Under the pieces are notes generated by a model. It searched no databases. It was given only the letters and a program-made list of their open reading frames with translations, and was not told where the DNA came from. The position numbers and the translations under genes are program-made. Positions 1 through 57,590 of a DNA stretch of 64,000 bases are shown here, piece after piece. The stretch's first letter is position 1; every line of letters begins with the position of its first letter. Source of the stretch: Nostoc sp. PCC 7524 (GTDB lineage Bacteria; Cyanobacteriota; Cyanobacteriia; Cyanobacteriales; Nostocaceae); contig NC_019684.1 of assembly GCF_000316645.1 (NCBI RefSeq), positions 1,364,001-1,428,000 of the forward strand. Direction: 5' to 3'.

Positions 1-532
1 CTTTACCGGTCAATTCAGAGATAGCAGTCAAGAACTCGTCAGTACCTTTAACGCCGAAGGGACGCAATACTTTGGTTTCTTGATTCCACTTGGTTTCGAT
101 GTATTCGCGGGTCTTGGGTGTGGTGTAAGCTTGGAGAGCAACTGTAGCTTTAGCGTTGATAGAATCAGCCGCATCTTCTAGCTTTGTACCACCTGGGTAC
201 ATTTCGTACTCACCAGTGTTAGGTGAATCAAAGTAGTCGCTGCTATCAGACAGGATGGTGTAATCAACACCCATTACATTCATCATCCGCTTCAATTCGC
301 GGTTGTTACCAACATAGGTATCAAAACCAGGAATGAAGTTGATTTTGCCGTTGCTGGTAGCTTTCTTCTTACCTTCTGTCAAGTTAGAAAGAATACCCTT
401 CATCATGTTGTCGTAGCCAGTGGTGTGAGAACCAACGAAGCTAGGTGTGTGAGCGAAGGGAACGGGGAAGTCTTGAGGAATAGAACCAGCGTTCTTAGAG
501 TTGGTGATGAACGCGCCTAAGTCATCACCGAT
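1..532 (-). CDS. nifK: Nitrogenase MoFe protein beta chain, 3' portion (split gene, runs off left edge)
   Basis: This is the second part of nifK, cut from its first part (6127-6621) by the nifK element. Read on the minus strand it starts at the recombination core with V-I-G-D-D-L-G-A-F-I and continues in an open frame to the window edge, through a typical stretch that includes SHTTGYDNMMKG and KVLRPFGVKGTDEFL. About 177 codons are present, and the C-terminal third lies outside the window. NifK is the beta subunit of the MoFe protein and shares the P-cluster with NifD. There is no start codon here, so the piece is silent unless the element is excised. After excision it joins at Ile158-Gly159 with the frame intact. 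Confidence 0.95.
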   Translation of the reverse strand, partial: MGDDLGAFITNSKNAGSIPQDFPVPFAHTPSFVGSHTTGYDNMMKGILSNLTEGKKKATSNGKINFIPGFDTYVGNNRELKRMMNVMGVDYTILSDSSDYFDSPNTGEYEMYPGGTKLEDAADSINAKATVALQAYTTPKTREYIETKWNQETKVLRPFGVKGTDEFLTAISELTGK

Positions 533-535
533 AAC
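525..535. repeat. Left direct repeat (recombination site) of the nifK element
   Basis: Sequence tcaccgataac. It matches the right copy tcaccgattac (6143-6153) at 10 of 11 positions, with an exact 8-bp core tcaccgat. It encodes the Val-Ile-Gly-Asp/Glu codons of NifK on the minus strand. Confidence 0.8.
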
Positions 536-892
536 ATAAGAAATGCGCTAAAACTATTGCTGCACAAGAGTTTTGCGGTAGAGCCTGTTTATATTGCTTA
601 TATTTTGCTTAAAGCTTTGAAATTTAACCTTAATTTGTCAATCAAAACAGTAAATTGATTTCTTAGTTTTTGATTAAATCTTGAGTTATTTTCTACTTAA
701 GAAGAATAAAGGCAACATTTCAGTGTAGAAGCCTACAGTTTTAGGTGGCTTTGTATTAATAGAAGTCCCCCCCTCTTTTTTACGTCGTAATTTCACGTTG
801 TTATTCACGTTGTTATTCACGTCGTGATTTACGTTGTGAATTCACGTTGTTACTACAGGAGGGGGGAGGGAGGTAGCTATAGCGTGTTAAAT
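536..892. other. Gene-free left end of the nifK element
   Basis: No convincing gene is seen. The stretch is AT-rich and holds a seven-C run near 767-773, the first ACGTYGT array (782-850) and a G-rich run (about 857-870) ending in ggtagctat. A similar ggtagctat follows the third array near 2716. Confidence 0.6.
782..850. repeat. Heptad array 1 of the nifK element
   Basis: Six units of ACGTTGT or ACGTCGT start at 782, 795, 807, 819, 831 and 844, a spacing of 13, 12, 12, 12 and 13 bp. All six read in the same direction. This matches three other arrays in the element. The regular spacing close to one helical turn suggests a cooperative protein-binding array (an iteron or centromere-like site). 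That role is inferred. Confidence 0.75.
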
Positions 893-1105
893 TTAATGGT
901 TAATCCCCTGCTTTTTCCTAGCATAGTATTTTGCAATTTCATGTTCATTAACCCAATAAACCCTACACACAATGCAAAAACTAGCATCTAAACCAGGAAT
1001 AAGATTGTGATTGCAAACACTTTTAATAACCGTACCATTGGAACTTTTATAAACGATACTTTGTACAGGTTCTAAACTGTATGTGTTGTCATTAGCTAGC
1101 AACAT
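893..1105 (-). CDS. Small hypothetical protein with Cys/His pairs
   Basis: A 70-residue protein of no recognised family. It contains a CNHN followed 14 residues later by CIVC, a spacing that could bind a metal, although no named zinc-finger family fits. It is the last of four minus-strand genes in the left half of the nifK element, separated from the next upstream gene by heptad array 2. The start at 1105 is the first ATG and no strong ribosome-binding site is evident. The gene may be real because it ends cleanly between two arrays, but coding evidence is limited. Confidence 0.5.
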   Translation of the reverse strand: MLLANDNTYSLEPVQSIVYKSSNGTVIKSVCNHNLIPGLDASFCIVCRVYWVNEHEIAKYYARKKQGINH

Positions 1106-1139
1106 ACCGCTTGTATCTTTCTAGATGTATCTTATTATC

Positions 1140-1207
1140 ACATTGTTTAATCACGTTGTATTTCACGACGTTAAACACGTTGTAAAACACGTTGTAAATA
1201 ACGACGT
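1140..1207. repeat. Heptad array 2 of the nifK element
   Basis: Six units start at 1140, 1153, 1165, 1177, 1189 and 1201 (spacing 13, 12, 12, 12, 12). Four read ACGTTGT or ACATTGT and two are in the reverse sense, ACGACGT. A run of six G residues follows about 8 bp downstream. Confidence 0.75.
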
Positions 1208-1310
1208 TGATATAGCGGGGGGTGGTATGCTCACAATAAAACCACTACAATATATTGCAGTGGTAAGAACAGTTTAATTATTGCTTATTGTTGACGCTGT
1301 AAGAATAGTA

Positions 1311-1523
1311 TCAATGGTGAATATTGACCAGATATTTTAAACCCATTGATATTAATCTTTTTTCGCCGTCAAAAGTACCTAAGTTTGGCTCATCTGTATC
1401 TGTGTTTGCAACAATTATTGCAACAGATTCAGCAAGTAAGTAAGGACATCCTTTCTCAAGTAAGGCTTGTAACCATGCTGTGAATATTCGATAGTTTTTA
1501 ATGATTACCTGCTGTTGAGTCAT
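1311..1523 (-). CDS. Small hypothetical protein
   Basis: A 70-residue protein without a recognised domain, beginning MTQQQVIIKNYRIF. It follows the 111-aa gene by only 5 bp, so it is probably co-transcribed with it and with the exported 147-aa protein upstream. The fragment WLQALLEKG...LLAESVAIIV could form an amphipathic helix. Nothing in the sequence shows a function. Confidence 0.55.
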   Translation of the reverse strand: MTQQQVIIKNYRIFTAWLQALLEKGCPYLLAESVAIIVANTDTDEPNLGTFDGEKRLISMGLKYLVNIHH

Positions 1524-1528
1524 GCTAT

Positions 1529-1864
1529 TTAATCCCCATAAAATAACTTTGCTGCATCTGGATTTCTGGGACGGTAACGCAAGACAACCATTGATGGTAG
1601 ATTGGGGTCTATTGGTTCATAAATCTCATAGTGGCTGTAATCCCAAATTTGATTTTCATTACCATAATGACCAACGGTGTAAGTGTGGTTAAAATCGCCA
1701 TTACCTACCTTCATGTCGTTATCTAGAAGCTGTTTAACCGCTTCCTTTGCTGGTAACGGCATTGATAGAACAGTGCCACTAAATAACGGTGGTGGTTCAC
1801 AATCAACACAAGGCATTTCAACAAATTGAGTACATGGCAATTCAATTGAGTATCCTTGATTCAT
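1529..1864 (-). CDS. Hypothetical protein in the nifK-element operon
   Basis: A 111-residue protein of unknown family. It carries a CVDCEPPP segment near residue 20 and an aromatic-rich C-terminal half (HTYTVGHYGNENQIWDYSHYE). Its start codon overlaps the stop of the upstream 147-aa gene by 4 bp, an arrangement typical of translational coupling, and the 70-aa gene follows after 5 bp. In a phage-like reading of the element it would sit beside a coat-like membrane protein, but I see no family match that supports a virion role. Confidence 0.6.
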   Translation of the reverse strand: MNQGYSIELPCTQFVEMPCVDCEPPPLFSGTVLSMPLPAKEAVKQLLDNDMKVGNGDFNHTYTVGHYGNENQIWDYSHYEIYEPIDPNLPSMVVLRYRPRNPDAAKLFYGD

Positions 1865-2304
1865 TTACCCGTTCCTCCAACAAATACACAAATCCATTTT
1901 CTTGTTACTGGATGCTGACGCTTGGTGTAACTTGCCCCTAGTTTTTTAGCCCTAGCCTTACAGATGTTTTCCGCTTTTGCTTCATTTCTCGTATCTAGCG
2001 GGTCTTCCCAAATGCCAATTTCATCTGGATTATCAGGGTTGTCGATCATTCTCATAACGTTGCCAGTAGCGTCAGCAAGTACCCTTTTACCTCCGCCGTA
2101 TTCCCATAAGTAATAAGTTGCTGTACCTATTACAACGGCTCCAATCAACAAACATCCCACGCCAGTAGAGCATATTGCCAACGGTGCAATTACAGCCGGG
2201 TTAGCTTTTACTGGACGTTGTGACAACGTAGAAAACGCCAATGTGAAGCTAACCCCAATTGCAACAACCGAACGGGGGTTTACTTTAGCTATTGATTTGT
2301 ACAT
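1861..2304 (-). CDS. Exported/membrane hypothetical protein (signal peptide plus one TM segment)
   Basis: A 147-residue protein. Residues about 10-35 look like a signal peptide (VVAIGVSFTLAFSTLSQRPVKA-N), followed by a second hydrophobic stretch at about 38-68 (IAPLAICSTGVGCLLIGAVVIG) ending in YLWEYGGGKR. The rest is polar, with a basic C-terminal end containing KRQHPVTRKWICVFVGG. It is the first gene of the minus-strand block and diverges from the ribbon-helix-helix gene across a palindromic operator, so that protein probably represses it. Size and topology resemble small membrane or coat proteins of filamentous phages, but no morphogenesis ATPase (Zot) is present, so this remains a guess. 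Confidence 0.65.
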   Translation of the reverse strand: MYKSIAKVNPRSVVAIGVSFTLAFSTLSQRPVKANPAVIAPLAICSTGVGCLLIGAVVIGTATYYLWEYGGGKRVLADATGNVMRMIDNPDNPDEIGIWEDPLDTRNEAKAENICKARAKKLGASYTKRQHPVTRKWICVFVGGTGK

Positions 2305-2307
2305 AAT

Positions 2308-2377
2308 GTTCCTGACAGTTCAGAACAATGGATGACATTATAAATATTGTTCCGAACTGTTCACACTTGTCAAGAAC
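2308..2377. promoter_or_regulatory. Putative operator: repeated GTTC-n-GAAC palindromes between divergent genes
   Basis: CAGTTCAGAACAAT (2316-2329) and ATTGTTCCGAACTG (2346-2359) form an inverted repeat. Each half is itself a GTTC-n-GAAC palindrome (2318-2326 and 2349-2357). Further GTTC and GAAC half-sites lie at 2308 and at 2359/2374. The sites sit between the divergent 147-aa gene and the ribbon-helix-helix gene, where an autorepressor operator is expected. Confidence 0.6.
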
Positions 2378-2404
2378 ATTTCACAAAGGGAACAAATTAA
2401 AGCA

Positions 2405-2560
2405 GTGCCTAGATACCCATCAATTACGGTAATCCTGACAGAAGAAGAAAAATCAGAGTTAGAGACAATTGCAAAAGGGGAAGATAGAAGCGTGTCTAAC
2501 CTTGCAGCAAGAATTATTAGGCAATGGCTTGAGGCAAGAAAGCAGGATAAGCAGCCGTAA
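2405..2560 (+). CDS. Ribbon-helix-helix (CopG/Arc-like) DNA-binding protein
   Basis: A 51-residue protein starting at GTG. The pattern PSITVILTEEEKSEL followed by a helix-turn-helix segment ending SNLAARIIRQWLEARK is typical of RHH repressors: a short beta strand (SITVIL), helix A (TEEEKSELETIAKG) and helix B (SVSNLAARIIRQWLE). RHH dimers bind palindromes or arrays of short repeats and commonly control plasmid copy number, partition or antitoxin genes. It diverges from the exported-protein operon across GTTC-n-GAAC palindromes, is followed by a hairpin terminator at 2591, and lies upstream of the replication initiator. It may bind that operator, the heptad arrays, or both. Confidence 0.75.
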   Translation: MPRYPSITVILTEEEKSELETIAKGEDRSVSNLAARIIRQWLEARKQDKQP

Positions 2561-2590
2561 AAACAAACTTTGACTAAATACCAAAAACAC

Positions 2591-2620
2591 ACCCACCAAG
2601 AATTACCTTGATGGGTTTTT
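2591..2620 (+). terminator. Rho-independent terminator after the RHH gene
   Basis: A 10-bp stem with one mismatch, ACCCACCAAG (2591-2600) against CTTGATGGGT (2607-2616), is followed by a T-run. It lies 30 bp after the RHH stop codon. Confidence 0.7.
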
Positions 2621-2644
2621 GTGTTTATTCCCATGTTGATAAAA

Positions 2645-2704
2645 ACAACGTTAATCACGTTGTGTTACACGTTGTGAAAAACGTTGTTAATGTACAACGT
2701 TGTT
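2645..2704. repeat. Heptad array 3 of the nifK element
   Basis: Units start at 2645 (ACAACGT), 2657, 2669 and 2681 (ACGTTGT) and 2694 (ACAACGT, overlapping ACGTTGT at 2698). Spacing is 12, 12, 12 and 13 bp. A G-run and ggtagctat follow, as after array 1. Confidence 0.75.
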
Positions 2705-2717
2705 ATAGAGGGGTAGG

Positions 2718-3136
2718 TAGCTATCCCAAGCTGTAAAAAGTAGATAAATAAAACTTATTGCCTGACATTCTCTAGTTTTAGGCTTTAGTTGACTGATTTC
2801 TCTGTGACCTATAAGTCTACTTGCAACGATGGCTGTAGTTAATATAACTTTTTCTAATAGAAGTATTCAACAGATAGGTTTAACCTTTCCTTCGAGAAGT
2901 GATGATAACTAAACTAAACAGTTTAGTTGTATTTAACTACCTCCTTTAATCCCTCACACGGCAAGCTATACAGCAATTAATATTTTTCCGTTGGCATAAA
3001 GTTGGTAGATTTGCTTTTCTGGGGAGTGGTACTAAGATACTACTCAAGTGTTTAAGAGTTCCTATGAATTCTAAACACAAAAAATAACCCCCTGACAGTT
3101 GGTAGCTGCTAGGGGGTAAATAAAAGGTTTTTTATT
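2718..3136. other. Gene-free region ahead of the replication initiator, with hairpin
   Basis: No gene is seen in about 420 bp. Just before the initiator start there is a hairpin with arms ACCCCCT (3087-3093) and AGGGGGT (3111-3117), plus an inner CAG/CTG pairing. For a rolling-circle replicon this would be a sensible place for a double-strand origin or a translational control hairpin. Neither role is shown by sequence alone. Confidence 0.4.
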
Positions 3137-4177
3137 ATGACTTTGAATAAAAATTTTAACCACGGATTTAGTGAACCCTTGGGCAATTCATCAAATCTTC
3201 AGAATCCTAACATCTTAATCCAACAATCCGCAAGTCATAACGATTATGACTTAGGGGAAAACAAGGGGACTGATAAAACCTCTCTGAATTTGCACGACAA
3301 ACCCCTATCTAATAGCGGGTCAGATGTGCAGTCAAAATCCCCACAACGTACACTACAAGCACATTTTGACGATTTAGTTTTTTTAGTAAAAATTCCCTAC
3401 TCAAAACCCCCTTCTCAGCCTCTAATAGGCTCCCTAGGATGGGAATCTTTTGTAGGTAAAAATGCCTTTAAGCCAGTTAGTGAAAAAAGACCCCCTTGTG
3501 GTACTGACATCAGAGAAGTGATTTTTAGAAACCCTCAAGGCGTGGAGATTGAACAGCTTTACTCTCCTGATAAAGACTTTGAAGCAGACTGTACATACCG
3601 CTATACGCTTCCAGGGAGCTACTTAAAGTCTTTACCCCTACAAAAGCTCTACCACGCCTTAAAGACGCTTCTAGCTACCCCTGATGTGAAGTTCACAAGA
3701 GTAGACCTAGCAGTAGATGTTTACAATGACCCTCGACTGCTAAAGCGGTTTCTCACTGCTTATGAATCTGGTAACTTCACCGGATTCAAAAAAGGTTCTA
3801 TTCATAACTCAGACAGTTTTCAAAAAGGACAACGTGTTAGTGAGGGTTTAACAGTTTATTTCGGTAGACGTGAAAGCGATAAACTTATCCGAGTTTATGA
3901 CAAAGCATTGCAGTTAGGAGAAGGTAATGACCACGTTCGTTATGAATTGGAATTACGTAATGATAACGCTCATAATGCAATAAAAGAAATAATAGACAAC
4001 TACCCTATAGATAACCTTGAGTATGGTATCGCTGTTTTAGCAACGTCTGATAAATACATTGATTTTATAGACAGAAGTAAAAATAAACAGCCTTGTAGAT
4101 GTCCTCGTTTAAAGTGGTGGAATAAGCTTTTGGCTGACGTTAAAAGTCTAAATAAATTATATATCTGCAAACAATAA
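3137..4177 (+). CDS. Rolling-circle replication initiator (Rep_trans family)
   Basis: A 346-residue protein. The first 75 residues are polar and variable; the core from about 75 onward fits the plasmid/phage replication initiation factor family (Rep_trans). Visible family motifs are FTRVDLAVDVYNDPR near residue 190, the segment LTVYFGRRESDKLIRVYDK near 240, and RYELELRNDNAHNAI near 265. Such proteins nick the double-strand origin through a tyrosine and start rolling-circle replication. It lies between a possible origin hairpin at 3087-3117 and a small ORF. No other replication gene is present. A replication initiator inside a developmental nif element implies that the element descends from an episome and that its excised circle might replicate. 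Confidence 0.75.
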   Translation: MTLNKNFNHGFSEPLGNSSNLQNPNILIQQSASHNDYDLGENKGTDKTSLNLHDKPLSNSGSDVQSKSPQRTLQAHFDDLVFLVKIPYSKPPSQPLIGSLGWESFVGKNAFKPVSEKRPPCGTDIREVIFRNPQGVEIEQLYSPDKDFEADCTYRYTLPGSYLKSLPLQKLYHALKTLLATPDVKFTRVDLAVDVYNDPRLLKRFLTAYESGNFTGFKKGSIHNSDSFQKGQRVSEGLTVYFGRRESDKLIRVYDKALQLGEGNDHVRYELELRNDNAHNAIKEIIDNYPIDNLEYGIAVLATSDKYIDFIDRSKNKQPCRCPRLKWWNKLLADVKSLNKLYICKQ

Positions 4178-4239
4178 TAACGTTGTTATATCAATTGCAG
4201 ATATATAATGCAGATTTAAATTAATCACAAGGCAAGTAT

Positions 4240-4458
4240 ATGCTAGATTCAGAAATAATCACGTTAGACTACCTCCTGATTTCCCGCTACCTTAACCGTA
4301 ATTGGTATTTATGGCATAGGGTGTTAGGTAGGTGTAAAGTGACTAACATTAATAGATATGATGTGAATACAGTTTATGTACAGTTCGGTAATCATCAATC
4401 AGTAAAATGTAGCTTGGATTTTCTAGGGTTAAAGCCTAAAAATAGTATTATTAGATAG
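4240..4458 (+). CDS. Small hypothetical protein downstream of Rep
   Basis: A 72-residue basic protein of unknown family, starting ATG with an AAGGCA element 7 bp upstream. It is rich in aromatic and basic residues (YLNRNWYLWHRVLGRCKV) and is likely co-transcribed with the initiator 62 bp upstream. In rolling-circle replicons such a place often holds a small DNA-binding or copy-control protein, but no motif here proves that. Transcription probably ends at the hairpin at 4541-4563. Confidence 0.5.
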   Translation: MLDSEIITLDYLLISRYLNRNWYLWHRVLGRCKVTNINRYDVNTVYVQFGNHQSVKCSLDFLGLKPKNSIIR

Positions 4459-4478
4459 TCGTTACCCCCTCTAATAGA

Positions 4479-4534
4479 ACAATGTAGAAACACGTTGTAA
4501 ATCACAACGTTATTCACAATGTGTTTAACGTCGT
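4479..4534. repeat. Heptad array 4 of the nifK element
   Basis: Five units start at 4479 (ACAATGT), 4492 (ACGTTGT), 4504 (ACAACGT), 4516 (ACAATGT) and 4528 (ACGTCGT), spaced 13, 12, 12 and 12 bp. Both orientations occur. A lone unit also lies at 4180-4186 right after the Rep stop codon. Confidence 0.75.
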
Positions 4535-4540
4535 TATAAA

Positions 4541-4563
4541 AAAAGGGGGTATCTACCCCTTTT
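4541..4563. terminator. Bidirectional terminator between the 72-aa ORF and the recombinase
   Basis: A perfect 8-bp stem AAAAGGGG (4541-4548) / CCCCTTTT (4556-4563) with a 7-nt loop sits between two convergent genes. It has T-runs at the exit on both strands. Confidence 0.7.
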
Positions 4564-4581
4564 AGTTTTCTGTATTTAGTT

Positions 4582-6000
4582 TTAATTAATCAATACTTGC
4601 TGTATTTGATGCTCTGCTAAAATTAGCTTTGCTCGCTCTAATTCAGACTGTAGTCTTGTTATTTCATCTTTTAGAATTGTATTTTCTTCTTTTAACTCTT
4701 CTAATTCATCTCTCTTATTCACCGCTTGGCTGAATGCCTGTTCTACGTGCTGTTGATCAAACCATTTTTGATAGATTTGCATATGTACTGCTAACGTATG
4801 ACCCATGCTTGCTGCTGCTGCTCTAGTGGGTATCCCTGCTAGATGCGCTCGAATTGCCCAAGCGTGACGTAGGTCATAAGGCTTAAAACCAACATTAACC
4901 TTTTTAAACCAGTCAGATATTGATTGAATTAATGTACTTTTCCCCCGTAAATCACATCTACCATTAATATATTTATCGACCAAGGTAACTGTTTCAGGGT
5001 TTTTTAAATCAAATAATTCAATCCACTCTTTGTGTAGCGGTAGGGCTTCTCTGTTTGACGTTTTACAGTCTTCATGAACTTTCCACTTAAGATTGTTAGG
5101 TGACAACCAGTGCTTAAAATCTGGTAAATAAATTATTTCTTCGGGGCGACATCCGTATGTTGCTAGCATTCCGTAAATCCATCTGAAAACCTTCCAATTA
5201 TCCGCTTGTTCTTCTCTTTTATTTCTTCTACCTGTGGCGTATTTTTCCCAATCTAAAAACTTAGATTCGATATCCGAATTGGATGGAATTGACCTTCTTT
5301 TTGTCTGAGGTTTCTTGTATTGAAGCTTTAAATTTATTCCGAATGCAGCACAGAATGAATTTAAAGTAATACTTACCCTATGTTTCATTGATGGCTTTTC
5401 GTTGGGGAACTTATCAAACTGTTCTTTGATGTTCTCTGGTGTAGCCAACATTTGTCTGTCAAATCTTTTAAGAACCGTCATGTAATTCTTGAATGTGTTT
5501 TCAGACCTAATATTTTTCTCCCTATTACAAAAGTAAGTTTCTTCATATCTGTCTAACAGTTCCCCAAATGTTTTGTCAAATTTATCCTGCTTCTTGCCTA
5601 AATATTTATCATCCCATTCAAAAGTTTTACGTGCGATTAATTTACTCAGTTCGTTGGCTTCTTCTATGGCAGTTTTTAGACCGTTTAAATTAGCAGGAAT
5701 TCCTAGCGATAATTTGTACTGTTTTGCCTCTTTACCAGTTCTGCTAGTGTCCCCTGGTTTTAATGGGAGTGTTGCTTGCAGTTGGAGTGCATCCCCAGTT
5801 CTTACAATACTTACCCTTGCCTTATCAGCCTTTAGCCGTGCGTTAGCTTCCTCAAGCTTCAATTTAAGCTGTTCTTCACTCTTGGCTGTTTGTTTTTGTA
5901 CGTGCTTCATTGTTCCCATATATGACCCGTCTGTAGTGGCTTTAGGCTCTGTATCGACGGTAGAAGCGTTATAAACCCTGTGCAGTCTTGTTTTTGGCAT
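4582..6000 (-). CDS. XisA-family tyrosine recombinase of the nifK element
   Basis: A 472-residue site-specific recombinase of the same length and layout as the nifD and nifH element enzymes here. The N-terminal half has the shared motif KPGD...KQYKLSLGIPANLNGLKTA and a KTFEWDDKYLGK segment. The catalytic half shows box I arginine in TYGCRPEEI, the box II segment PYDLRHAWAIRAH, and the nucleophile region MGHTLAVHMQIYQKWF with its tyrosine. The C terminus is a coiled coil (ELEELKEENTILKDEITRL). The gene starts 143 bp inside the right repeat and reads into the element. It should excise the nifK element by recombining tcaccgatWac. No tandem TGT-N9-ACA sites are seen upstream, unlike its two relatives. 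Confidence 0.9.
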   Translation of the reverse strand: MPKTRLHRVYNASTVDTEPKATTDGSYMGTMKHVQKQTAKSEEQLKLKLEEANARLKADKARVSIVRTGDALQLQATLPLKPGDTSRTGKEAKQYKLSLGIPANLNGLKTAIEEANELSKLIARKTFEWDDKYLGKKQDKFDKTFGELLDRYEETYFCNREKNIRSENTFKNYMTVLKRFDRQMLATPENIKEQFDKFPNEKPSMKHRVSITLNSFCAAFGINLKLQYKKPQTKRRSIPSNSDIESKFLDWEKYATGRRNKREEQADNWKVFRWIYGMLATYGCRPEEIIYLPDFKHWLSPNNLKWKVHEDCKTSNREALPLHKEWIELFDLKNPETVTLVDKYINGRCDLRGKSTLIQSISDWFKKVNVGFKPYDLRHAWAIRAHLAGIPTRAAAASMGHTLAVHMQIYQKWFDQQHVEQAFSQAVNKRDELEELKEENTILKDEITRLQSELERAKLILAEHQIQQVLIN

Positions 6001-6126
6001 TTCTTATTTCTTGCTTAAATATCATGAGACAACCTAAGCCAAAATACGTCTGTTCATGAGAAGCAATTTGAGTGTTACTCTTGAAACTACGTATTTAGGT
6101 GGTTTTAGGATACCATGATTTCTGCT

Positions 6127-6621
6127 TTAATAACCGAAGTTTTCACCGATTACTTCCGCCATACAGGTGGTGCAAACAGCAATCATCTTAGGCTTGTACA
6201 GTTGGTATGCAACTTGCATACCTTCGATCATGTTGTTCAAACCACCGAATACTGCTGCGTCTTCTGTCATAGAAGAAGAAACTGCGGAGCAAGGCTCTTT
6301 GTAGTGACGGCTGAGGTGTGTACGGAAGTAAGCAACACAACCTTGAGAACCTTGAACGAAAGGTAGAGTACCTTCAAAACCCAAAGCAGCAAACATTGCG
6401 CCTACAGGTTGACAACCTTTAGCGGGGTTAACGGTTAAAGCTTCACGAGCGAAGTTCTTTTCCCGGTAGTCCCAAGATTTTGTCCATTCAGAAACTCTTT
6501 CAACTTCTTCAGGAGAGTGTGCGCCTTCAAAGTTCTTTCTCTTGTTTTCAAACAGTTCTGTGTATTCTGGCTGTTTGAATAGATCAACGTGGTCTACAAT
6601 TCTATCTGGATTCTGTGGCAT
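6127..6621 (-). CDS. nifK: Nitrogenase MoFe protein beta chain, 5' portion (split gene)
   Basis: The first 159 codons of nifK starting at ATG 6621, followed by five element-encoded codons (ENFGY) and a stop at 6127. It begins [20 protein letters not shown] and contains the P-cluster cysteine regions [36 protein letters not shown] and [10 protein letters not shown]. The break lies a few residues after the CTTCMAE cysteines, in one of the most conserved parts of the protein. After excision the next residues are D-D-L-G-A-F-I, as expected for NifK. It follows nifD in the operon with a spacer of about 200 bp. Confidence 0.97.
6143..6153. repeat. Right direct repeat of the nifK element
   Basis: Sequence tcaccgattac, the partner of 525-535. 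On the minus strand it encodes the V-I-G-E codons that end the first nifK segment. Confidence 0.8.
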
Positions 6622-6776
6622 TTGTCTGTCTCTCTACGCTTGCTGGTTGGTTTAGTAAGTGATGTTTTGCAATAGCCTGGGTGACTGACTCCCCTGAAGG
6701 GAGTTACGAGTGATGAATCATGAATAATGAATGAAATTTCATGCAGCATTCAGCATTCACCATTCCTCCCTCGTGT

Positions 6777-6798
6777 CCTGGGGCGCAGACACCCCAGG
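6777..6798. promoter_or_regulatory. Hairpin in the nifD-nifK spacer
   Basis: A perfect stem CCTGGGG (6777-6783) / CCCCAGG (6792-6798) with an 8-nt loop lies about 20 bp after the nifD stop codon. It has no T-run. It may act as an mRNA stabiliser or processing site within the operon. The neighbouring 6715-6768 stretch has short tandem repeats of the attcagcattcac type. Confidence 0.5.
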
Positions 6799-6819
6799 CT
6801 ATCCGTCTATTTCTTGGAA

Positions 6820-6961
6820 CTAGGCAGCAGCCTTAGCTTTTGTAGCGGTTTTTTTCCAAGGTGCGCCAATCAAGTCCCAAGTGGGGCTGTTGAGGGCGAG
6901 ATCCATATCACGAGCGAAGATAGCAAATCCGTCATAACCGTGATAAGGGCCGGAGTAATCC
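6820..6961 (-). CDS. nifD: Nitrogenase MoFe protein alpha chain, 3' portion (split gene)
   Basis: The last 43 codons of nifD plus the repeat core, ending in TAG at 6820-6822. On the minus strand the core GGATTACTCCG is followed by codons for [20 protein letters not shown] and a tail ending [13 protein letters not shown] (TATKAKAAA). Joining to the 5' portion at 22801 gives the conserved [16 protein letters not shown] segment and a 497-residue NifD. The piece has no start codon and is only expressed after excision. Confidence 0.96.
6951..6961. repeat. Left direct repeat of the nifD element (XisA site)
   Basis: Sequence cggagtaatcc, identical to 22801-22811. On the coding strand it is GGATTACTCCG. 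Confidence 0.95.
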
Positions 6962-7009
6962 TTTTTGTGGTTTAATGGCTTTCAACGGCTTATTGTTTGC
7001 AGTAAGCAC

Positions 7010-7079: not shown

Positions 7080-8498
7080 ATGCAAAATCAGGGTCAAGAC
7101 AAATATCAACAAGCCTTTGCAGACTTAGAGCCACTTTCATCTACCGACGGCAGCTTTCTCGGCTCAAGTCTGCAAGCACAGCAGCAAAGAGAGCATATGA
7201 GAGCAAAAGTGTTACAGGAACTAGATAAGGTAAATCTGCGTTTGAAGTCTGCAAAGACGAAAGTATCAATTCGGGAATCAAATGGAAGTCTGCAATTAAG
7301 AGCGACGCTACCAATTAAACCTGGAGATAACGACACAAAGGGAACTGGGAGAAAGCAATACAATCTCAGTTTAAATATTCCCGCCAATTTAGATGGACTC
7401 AAAACGGCTGAGGAAGAAGCCTATGAATTAGGTAAATTAATCGCTCGTAAAACCTTTGAATGGAATGATAAATATTTAGGTAAAGAAGCGACTAAAAAAG
7501 ATGTAAAAACCATAGGTGATTTATTAGAAAAATTTGCAGAAGAGTATTTTAAAACCCATAAACGCACCACAAAAAGCGAACATACCTTTTTCTATTATTT
7601 TTCTCGTACCCAGAGATACACTAATCCTCAAGATTTAGCCACTGCGGAAAATTTAATTAACTCAATAGAAAAAATCGATAAAGAATGGGCTAAATATAAT
7701 GCTGCGAGGGCGATATCTGCATTTTGTCAAACATTCAATATTGAAATTGATTTATCTCAATATTCCAAAATGCCCGATCGCAATTCCCGCAACCTCCCCA
7801 CAGATGCAGAAATATTATTAGGAATTACCAAGTTTGAGGAGTATTTAAACATTAGAGGTAATCAAGTTAATCAAGATGTCAAAGATAGTTGGCAACTCTG
7901 GCGTTGGACGTATGGAATGTTAGCCGTATTTGGTTTACGTCCTAGAGAAATATTTATTAACCCTGATATTGATTGGTGGTTAAGTTCAGAGAATGTAGAT
8001 TTAACTTGGAAGGTAGATAAAGAGTGTAAAACAGGTGAAAGACAAGCATTACCTTTACATAAAGAATGGATTGATGAATTTGATTTAAGAAATCCGAAAT
8101 ATTTAGAGATGTTAGCAACAGCAATTAGTAAAAAAGATAAAAGTAATCATGCAGAGATAACTGCTTTAACACAGCGAGTTAGTTGGTGGTTTCGCAAAAT
8201 CGGCTTAGATTTCAAGCCTTATGATTTACGTCACGCCTGGGCAATTCGAGCGCATATTTTAGGTATACCAATCAAAGCGGCGGCAGATAATTTAGGGCAT
8301 AGTGTGCAAGTGCATACCCAAACCTATCAGCGTTGGTTTTCGCTAGATATGCGTAAGTTGGCGATTAATCAGGCGTTGACTAAGAGGAATGAAATTGAAG
8401 TTATTAAAGAGGAGAATGCTAAGTTGAGAATGGAGAATGAAAGGTTGAAGCTGGAGGTTGAAAAGTTAAAGATGGAGTTAGTTTATAAACAGAGTTAA
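7080..8498 (+). CDS. xisA: XisA site-specific recombinase of the nifD element
   Basis: A 472-residue tyrosine recombinase that should excise the nifD element in heterocysts by joining the two cggagtaatcc repeats. Box I arginine is seen in VFGLRPREIF, box II in PYDLRHAWAIRAH, and the nucleophile region in LGHSVQVHTQTYQRWF. The N-terminal half carries the motif LPIKPGD...KQYNLSLNIPANLDGLKTA shared with the nifK and nifH element enzymes. The C-terminal end is a heptad-rich coiled coil (EIEVIKEENAKLRMENERLKLEVEKLKMEL). The ATG at 7080 is 119 bp from the left repeat, behind two NtcA-like sites. A small AT-rich hairpin (8500-8516) follows the stop codon. Confidence 0.95.
   Translation: MQNQGQDKYQQAFADLEPLSSTDGSFLGSSLQAQQQREHMRAKVLQELDKVNLRLKSAKTKVSIRESNGSLQLRATLPIKPGDNDTKGTGRKQYNLSLNIPANLDGLKTAEEEAYELGKLIARKTFEWNDKYLGKEATKKDVKTIGDLLEKFAEEYFKTHKRTTKSEHTFFYYFSRTQRYTNPQDLATAENLINSIEKIDKEWAKYNAARAISAFCQTFNIEIDLSQYSKMPDRNSRNLPTDAEILLGITKFEEYLNIRGNQVNQDVKDSWQLWRWTYGMLAVFGLRPREIFINPDIDWWLSSENVDLTWKVDKECKTGERQALPLHKEWIDEFDLRNPKYLEMLATAISKKDKSNHAEITALTQRVSWWFRKIGLDFKPYDLRHAWAIRAHILGIPIKAAADNLGHSVQVHTQTYQRWFSLDMRKLAINQALTKRNEIEVIKEENAKLRMENERLKLEVEKLKMELVYKQS

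Positions 8499-35969: not shown

Positions 35970-57590
<21,621 letters not shown>

Follow-up and report, generated by a model that had tools for sequence, protein, structure and literature searches.

Regularly spaced dyad arrays, probable protein-binding sites, in a nifK excision element of Nostoc sp. PCC 7524 and in two other Nostoc elements

Introduction

In pSM19035, the ribbon-helix-helix (RHH) protein omega acts on arrays of heptads, which it recognizes in a pseudo-symmetric manner, as described in parts of two accounts (PMC9499535, PMC5016525), and in mycobacteriophages many copies of a repressor site, the stoperators, are spread over one mobile genome, as described in part of a third (PMC9283540). 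Here we describe four arrays of a seven-base unit in the element that interrupts nifK in Nostoc sp. PCC 7524, within a stretch of 64,000 nucleotides (contig NC_019684.1, positions 1,364,001 to 1,428,000; hereafter the window, whose numbering is used throughout). As far as the passages on omega/parS go, both systems have 7-base units in direct or inverted sense, several arrays per replicon and a small RHH protein. In pSM19035, however, the heptads are contiguous, overlap the promoters of partition and copy-control genes and have ParA as a partner, whereas the units described here are not contiguous 7-bp repeats, being 5–6 bp apart (12–13 bp start to start), and their RHH protein is a candidate binder. 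No ParA ATPase was found by Pfam among the seven open reading frames (ORFs) of the 3.83-kb segment that carries the arrays (the cargo); a ParA encoded elsewhere in the genome was not sought. With the stoperators the arrays share the presence of many copies over one mobile genome, mostly between genes, both in the nifK cargo (four arrays in 3.8 kb) and in an element of Nostoc sp. UHCC 0702 treated below, but the stoperator, in the same partial account, is an asymmetric site for a monomeric repressor, whereas the present units are near-palindromic and stand in arrays of four to six. By this comparison, the arrays would work most like omega/parS and the stoperators, but they lack the contiguous heptads and the ParA that define omega/parS.

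Heterocyst excision elements are mostly discussed as a recombinase with cargo of unclear use, and the heterocystous cyanobacteria also have heptanucleotide short tandemly repeated repetitive (STRR) sequences, which are chromosomal and arranged head-to-tail. The nifK arrays have in common with them the seven-base motif and the group of hosts, and differ in being spaced, with variable spacers, and in belonging to one element. Scattered sites of the SopC/OB type, which we take to be those of phage N15, offer a further comparison. According to passages of PMC5016525, these are inverted-repeat sites across one mobile genome, with one inverted repeat in a longer iteron, whereas the nifK arrays are 12/13-bp arrays of short dyads. 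The type III tubC and type II parC centromeres, in passages of the same source, are also made of short repeats in split blocks that form a helical nucleoprotein complex, but they lie upstream of the par operon, whereas the arrays here are scattered and no ParM, TubZ or TubR family was matched by Pfam among the seven cargo ORFs. Such repeats were not described among the titles and abstract openings listed by our literature searches, nor in passages of PMC4874684 and PMC6344855.

Results

The arrays are regular, non-random, mostly intergenic and confined to the cargo within their own genome, and arrays of this format are also present in two other Nostoc elements, in one of them with a different dyad. 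A sequence-only reading of the window had proposed four arrays of ACGTYGT at 12–13 bp spacing, and this was borne out: all 22 units (6, 6, 5 and 5 per array; Table 1) fit the degenerate palindrome ACRWYGT, with an invariant AC-N3-GT core and gaps of 12 or 13 bp only. The count of five or six heptads per array is correct for this degenerate unit and fails for array 4 under the strict one, which, taken on either strand, forms chains of 6 units at 782–850, 5 at 1153–1207, 5 at 2645–2700 and only 3 at 4492–4534; the distinction of direct from inverted sense has little meaning for a near-palindromic unit. Strict ACGTYGT was found 35 times in the window, where 100 shuffles led to an expectation of 9.2 and reached 18 at most, and 25 of the 35 matches fall in 782–4534. 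Unit pairs at a lag of 12 or 13 numbered 18 in the cargo, whereas 200 dinucleotide shuffles gave 0.01 on average and never more than 1, the motif in this statistic being derived from the very arrays tested, and the three-unit pattern with gaps 13,12 had 5 matches against 0.00 expected (100 shuffles). Mean pairwise identity was 0.91 for the heptads and 0.57 for the spacers of the nifK arrays, a conservation of the unit above the spacers that fits binding sites better than simple tandem duplication.

With respect to the genes, the claim that the arrays are intergenic applies to arrays 1, 2 and 4, which overlap no ORF of at least 65 aa, and not strictly to array 3, which shares 14 bp with an ORF that runs antisense to the RHH gene. 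Array 3, which has an extra overlapping heptad at 2697–2703, sits between the RHH and rep genes, and array 4 between a 72-aa ORF and the 3' end of the recombinase gene xis. A G-run had been noted after each array; the one after array 4 belongs to the hairpin at the xis end, which lies in sequence common to an array-less relative, Anabaena sp. 4-3, and C-runs are also present to the left of arrays 1 and 4. The possibility of coding repeats was rejected, since the 13-bp gaps break the reading frame. The 13-bp gaps tend to be terminal in the nifK arrays (p 0.0065) and in the element of Nostoc muscorum FACHB-395 described below (p 0.0022), a pattern noticed post hoc that fails as a rule in the UHCC 0702 element, where some 13-bp gaps are internal.

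Because BLAST with array 1 matched only itself, further arrays were sought with sequence-only covariance models, built from the nifK arrays (R1), from these jointly with the FACHB-395 arrays (R2) and from eight arrays of UHCC 0702 (R3). In its own genome (6.72 Mb; 150 of 2,536 candidates scored), R1 had 14 matches with E-values up to 1, of which 11 lie in the cargo (the weakest at E 0.06) and three, at E 0.27–0.55, in two other places; outside the cargo, no match among the scored candidates fell below E 0.1. With gaps of 12–14 or 24–26 allowed, no two strict heptads formed a chain in the rest of the window or in 20 stretches of the same genome. When any motif was accepted, provided that at least four units followed each other at 12/13-bp gaps, a generic scan recovered four arrays in the cargo and none in 383,839 bases of the own genome; in 538,949 bases of related genomes it gave seven arrays, no two with the same motif. 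The ACRWYGT word was found 28 times in the 3,829 bases of the cargo, 32 times in the remaining 60,171 bases of the window and 93 times in the 383,839 own-genome bases. The confinement to the element that had been proposed thus agrees with both the model search and the bases read, arrays were not common in the host genome outside the cargo, and a host-wide repeat was rejected.

Among 217 genomes of the family, R1 matched six at E 1e-3 or better: its own, FACHB-395 (G327), G366, G405, G432 and G513. With R2, the 388 genomes of the order and 386 of the phylum gave only its own, FACHB-395 and G006. These three samples overlap, with 28 candidates scored per genome in the family and 12 in the order and phylum, and concern the nifK-type motif only. 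On inspection, the matches in G366, G405, G432, G513 and G006 (the last a 12-bp tandem repeat) were near-identical 12-bp tandem units or degenerate pairs and were rejected. Pattern scans of viral contigs returned 28 and 10 stretches, overlapping and mostly of near-identical 12-bp tandem units. In a GC-rich viral contig (L117, 2397–2450), ACGACGT units with gaps of 12,13,12,10 lie just after a large ORF, and two small ones (L043 at 4039, L051 at 1933) have six perfect 12-bp tandem copies containing ACGTTGT.

The FACHB-395 element, located at tRNA-Phe, has nearly the same unit and gap scheme as the nifK cargo. It measures 4,062 bp from repeat to repeat, the repeats being perfect and 47 bp long, and its genes are those of an integrase and a 130-aa protein, besides small ORFs. 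Three arrays of AACGTCGTT-like units were found in it, with gaps of 13,12,12,13, of 13,12,13 and of 13,12,12,13. The R1 E-values of 5.6e-4 and 9.6e-4 are per genome and alone not significant over 217 genomes; nevertheless, these two matches and a third array, recognized by exact heptads, fall together in a 1.7-kb part of one element. Mean pairwise identity was 1.0 for the heptads and 0.47 for the spacers. No resemblance was observed between the genes of this element and those of the nifK cargo, the best frame match (E 4e-4) being between unlikely gene frames.

The 130-aa protein has a 48% identical relative in Nostoc sp. UHCC 0702 (G330), where arrays at the same 12/13-bp pitch are made of a different dyad, approximately ATGYACAT. 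Searched against 20 chosen genomes, R3 matched UHCC 0702 alone, with 26 matches at E 1e-4 or better (150 of 5,007 candidates scored in that genome). Merged by us, these form 16 arrays, eight of which were not used in building R3, and all lie in 28 kb (3,545,251–3,573,362) of the 8.6-Mb chromosome. Chains of at least three units numbered 13 in the 100 kb read there, and seven other stretches of the same genome, 133 kb in all, had none. By predicted ORFs, 14 of the 16 arrays are intergenic (2,000 random placements gave 2.4 on average and at most 10), and 8 of the 16 precede an ORF start by no more than 160 bp. The genes of the element include a Dda-like helicase, a 5-hmdU DNA kinase domain, an integrase and two Arc/RHH-like proteins. 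Its 322-aa protein had no match in phages, plasmids or viral contigs and its 516-aa protein none in phages, so that "virus-like" is a loose label for this stretch, resting on gene-family matches. The kinase helical domain (PF18723, E 2.3e-40; L151 3227–4285) is a hint of modified DNA. Relatives of the 130-aa family occupy six places in UHCC 0702 (including L151 8551–9261 and 10976–11350, and L148–L150), and further 12–13-bp repeats with the palindrome TTACTCCAAGTAA are found kilobases from such relatives (L153 15437, L154 5780).

All three array-bearing elements encode a tyrosine recombinase. Other features are common to two of them: the 130-aa family and the type of integrase (29% identical) to FACHB-395 and UHCC 0702, and RHH-type proteins, one and two respectively, to the nifK cargo and UHCC 0702. 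The own genome had no match to the 130-aa family, and a structure model of the 130-aa protein common to the other two was of low confidence (predicted local distance difference test, pLDDT, 57).

As in the nifK type of heterocyst excision element, nifK is interrupted, here by about 5.6 kb (the N-terminal part of NifK at 6127–6621, the match to the C-terminal part of a relative's nifK up to ~541), and a tyrosine recombinase gene stands at the edge of the element. By blastn, window positions 1–7000 and the Anabaena sp. 4-3 locus (L031) have segments 3–708 and 4538–6998 in common, and the latter has about 238 bp in place of 709–4537. This sister element is minimal (~2.1 kb, L031 6881–9009), occupying the same place in nifK and consisting of little more than a full-length recombinase (70% identity); it has neither the cargo nor any chain of two heptads. 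The arrays, Rep, RHH and small genes are therefore read from the sequence as a cargo that can be separated from the rest, arrays 1 and 4 lying close to its two ends, and the recombinase of the sister element manages without arrays.

Table 1. Positions of the arrays, genes and other features of the nifK element in the window
Feature	Positions	Strand	Details and basis
Cargo, 3.83 kb, within nifK element	709–4537	.	blastn vs Anabaena sp. 4-3 locus L031
Array 1, six ACRWYGT units	782–850	+	starts 782,795,807,819,831,844; gaps 13,12,12,12,13
70-aa ORF, no family	893–1105	-	ORF list, family scans
Array 2, six units	1140–1207	.	starts 1140,1153,1165,1177,1189,1201; gaps 13,12,12,12,12
70-aa ORF, no family	1311–1523	-	ORF list, family scans
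111-aa ORF, second gene of two-gene module with relatives in Nostocales	1529–1864	-	ORF list, homology search
147-aa ORF, first gene of module, hydrophobic N-terminal part (by eye)	1861–2304	-	homology search
Divergent promoter region, GTTC/GAAC inverted repeats, no heptad; likely RHH operator	2305–2404	.	
RHH protein, 51 aa	2405–2560	+	RHH_5, phrog_3431
Array 3, five units	2645–2700	.	starts 2645,2657,2669,2681,2694; gaps 12,12,12,13
Rep_trans (PF02486) replication initiator or relaxase-like protein, 346 aa	3137–4177	+	Pfam, phage and structure matches
15-bp perfect inverted repeat, rep 3' end	4156–4209	.	fold z -5.2; 0/200 shuffles fold as well
72-aa ORF, no convincing family	4240–4458	+	ORF list, family scans
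Array 4, five units, two of them ACAATGT	4479–4534	.	starts 4479,4492,4504,4516,4528; gaps 13,12,12,12
Terminator-like hairpin, xis 3' end; source of G-run after array 4	4542–4563	.	
Tyrosine recombinase (xis) of nifK element, 472 aa	4582–6000	-	PF00589, below cut-off

Among the proteins encoded in the cargo, the 51-aa RHH protein is the best candidate binder. It matched RHH_5 at E 2.7e-5 (24.2 bits, below the Pfam cut-off of 26) and an Arc-like repressor (phrog_3431) at E 1.5e-8. Since relatives of the 147/111-aa pair elsewhere have other small genes as neighbours, of which one looks XRE-like on inspection, the RHH protein may simply regulate the pair that its gene faces. The 147-aa protein had matches in 8 of 388 genomes, the own genome included with three places, and stretches with relatives of the 147-aa and RHH proteins had no chain of two heptads. 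In the Nostocales, relatives of the 147/111-aa module (L072, L013, L073, L074) adjoin differing small genes.

The Rep protein, a Rep_trans initiator (PF02486, E 2.4e-25) within an array-bearing element, as iterons would have it, also matched phage replication initiation proteins and the solved GST Rep 4cij. At E 1e-3 it found only itself in a large protein database, and distant relatives (28–34% identity) were found by whole-genome searches in 9 other genomes of 388. In one genome (G086, L080 9223–12627), a Rep_trans gene preceded by a 10-bp tandem repeat again converges with a Xis-like recombinase gene; elements of this kind may repeatedly pair Rep with Xis. The inverted repeat at the end of rep is a candidate origin or terminator.

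Elsewhere in the window, a second tyrosine recombinase, probably of a nifD element, is encoded on the opposite strand just past the nifK start (7080–8498), 8.8 tandem copies of a 369-bp unit with ~90% identity occupy 41623–44882, and long GGT-like repeat tracts at 51576–52572 could encode a glycine-rich protein.

Discussion

Judged from their structure, the arrays very probably bind a protein, and the iteron- or partition-like character first ascribed to them is supported. Our preferred reading, to which we give a probability of about 0.45, is that they are cooperative binding sites of one dimeric DNA-binding protein and make up an element-wide set of operators or silencers, the protein perhaps also clustering or partitioning the excised circle. 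The most likely function would be that of an operator or silencer, possibly that of a centromere, with partition as the next reading. Each ACRWYGT unit, given its invariant core, would be the dyad for one dimer; at the 12/13-bp pitch adjacent dimers would touch, five or six of them forming one nucleoprotein patch, and several such patches over one element, mostly between genes, would repress or insulate the whole of it at once. An operator or silencer fits best because each element has several arrays, mostly intergenic, and half of those in UHCC 0702 are upstream of ORF starts.

Several observations weigh against this reading. Among the four nifK arrays, only array 2, which begins 35 bp upstream of the 70-aa ORF at 893–1105, is close upstream of an ORF. 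Arrays 1 and 4 stand at the ends of genes and more than 400 bp separates array 3 from rep, so that simple repression of promoters does not account for every array. Array C, the third in FACHB-395, is inside a predicted 68-aa ORF, perhaps a spurious one, and the units of UHCC 0702 are looser, the strict generic scan recovering only two of its arrays. With the exception of the tyrosine recombinases, a BLAST comparison of the genes found none present in all three elements, and one common mechanism is for this reason inferred from the array format alone. The RHH protein as binder, an idea of the sequence-only reading, did not gain ground: its own divergent promoter region has GTTC/GAAC inverted repeats and no heptad, it had no BLASTP similarity to either RHH protein of UHCC 0702, and no RHH protein was recognized by Pfam in the FACHB-395 element, for which the binder may come from elsewhere.

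Instead of operators, the arrays might be centromere-like sites of the parS, parC or tubC kind, bound by the RHH protein or by that of another replicon, through which an excised, Rep-replicated circle would be inherited. We consider this unlikely, although an RHH protein and a replication initiator are encoded in one cargo, a distant RHH relative (31%, L142) adjoins an ORF assigned by eye as ParA-like, and omega of pSM19035 binds direct or inverted heptads at several dispersed parS sites, according to passages of PMC9499535 and PMC5016525. In the accounts of that system, again in part, at least four contiguous heptads are needed for full ATPase activation, whereas the units here are separated; besides the absence of ParA, ParM and TubZ families from the cargo ORFs noted above, the FACHB-395 element has arrays with neither Rep nor RHH by Pfam, and the 16 array copies of UHCC 0702 would be many for partition. 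The arrays could also be replication iterons bound by Rep, which with the hairpin at 4156–4209 would be parts of a rolling-circle type origin. The hairpin, whose loop has one unit inside an ATAAC-GTT-GTTAT palindrome, and the replication-initiation matches of Rep are in keeping with this, as are 4 of 10 stretches around distant Rep genes in which a looser scan (gaps 11–14, any motif) found one 4–5-unit array of another motif, one of them ~1 kb from the Rep gene (L084). Binding by Rep, for which a test had been proposed at the outset, is nevertheless not supported, in that no chain of two heptads was found near the distant Rep relatives. FACHB-395, which belongs to the order sample (equal in size to the one searched for Rep), carries arrays and was absent from the genomes that matched Rep, and four arrays over 3.8 kb are unusual for one origin. 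Iterons seem to us the less probable of these two alternatives.

A protein encoded outside the elements, either a host nucleoid or silencing protein or one of a helper phage or plasmid that is exploited or titrated, would explain how the nifK cargo and FACHB-395 come to share nearly the same unit and gaps and, by BLAST, no gene. This seems to us as improbable as iterons, since no further true arrays of the motif were found among the few candidates scored per genome in the family, order and phylum samples, two mixed-gap four-unit patterns matched no viral contig, and one would expect more sites if the factor acted host-wide. Least probable by far is that the arrays are accessory (arm-type) sites of the recombinase or the ends of a nested transposon. 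Both cargo ends have an array nearby (1 and 4), the two being mutually inverted (70% over 57 nt), and a tyrosine recombinase accompanies the arrays in every element, but near-palindromic units make any pair of arrays look inverted, the FACHB-395 arrays are ~1 kb or more inside the attachment repeats, and the array-less sister element of Anabaena sp. 4-3 keeps its recombinase at the same nifK site, for which reason recombination machinery was rejected.

The preferred reading, an element-wide set of operators or silencers, can be extended to a class of mobile elements. Recurrence of the format with another dyad points to a protein-site pair peculiar to each element or group. Somewhat more tentatively than that reading, we propose that 4-kb to ~28-kb mobile elements of the Nostocaceae may share a nucleoprotein "address code", in which intergenic arrays of 4–6 short dyads at 12/13-bp pitch, with a dyad proper to each element or group, would be read by a small protein that silences, counts or segregates the element and sets immunity or incompatibility groups.

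The point of interest is that the format recurs, with different motifs, across otherwise unrelated elements. A multi-site binding system in an excision element suggests that a replicating or regulated mobile element is lodged there and has retained its control sites. If one protein reads the arrays element-wide, they would offer a handle on mobile DNA in filamentous cyanobacteria, namely on its silencing, its inheritance and immunity, and their simple signature could serve to find further elements. If the address code is true, immunity or incompatibility groups would also exist for elements parked in nitrogen-fixation genes.

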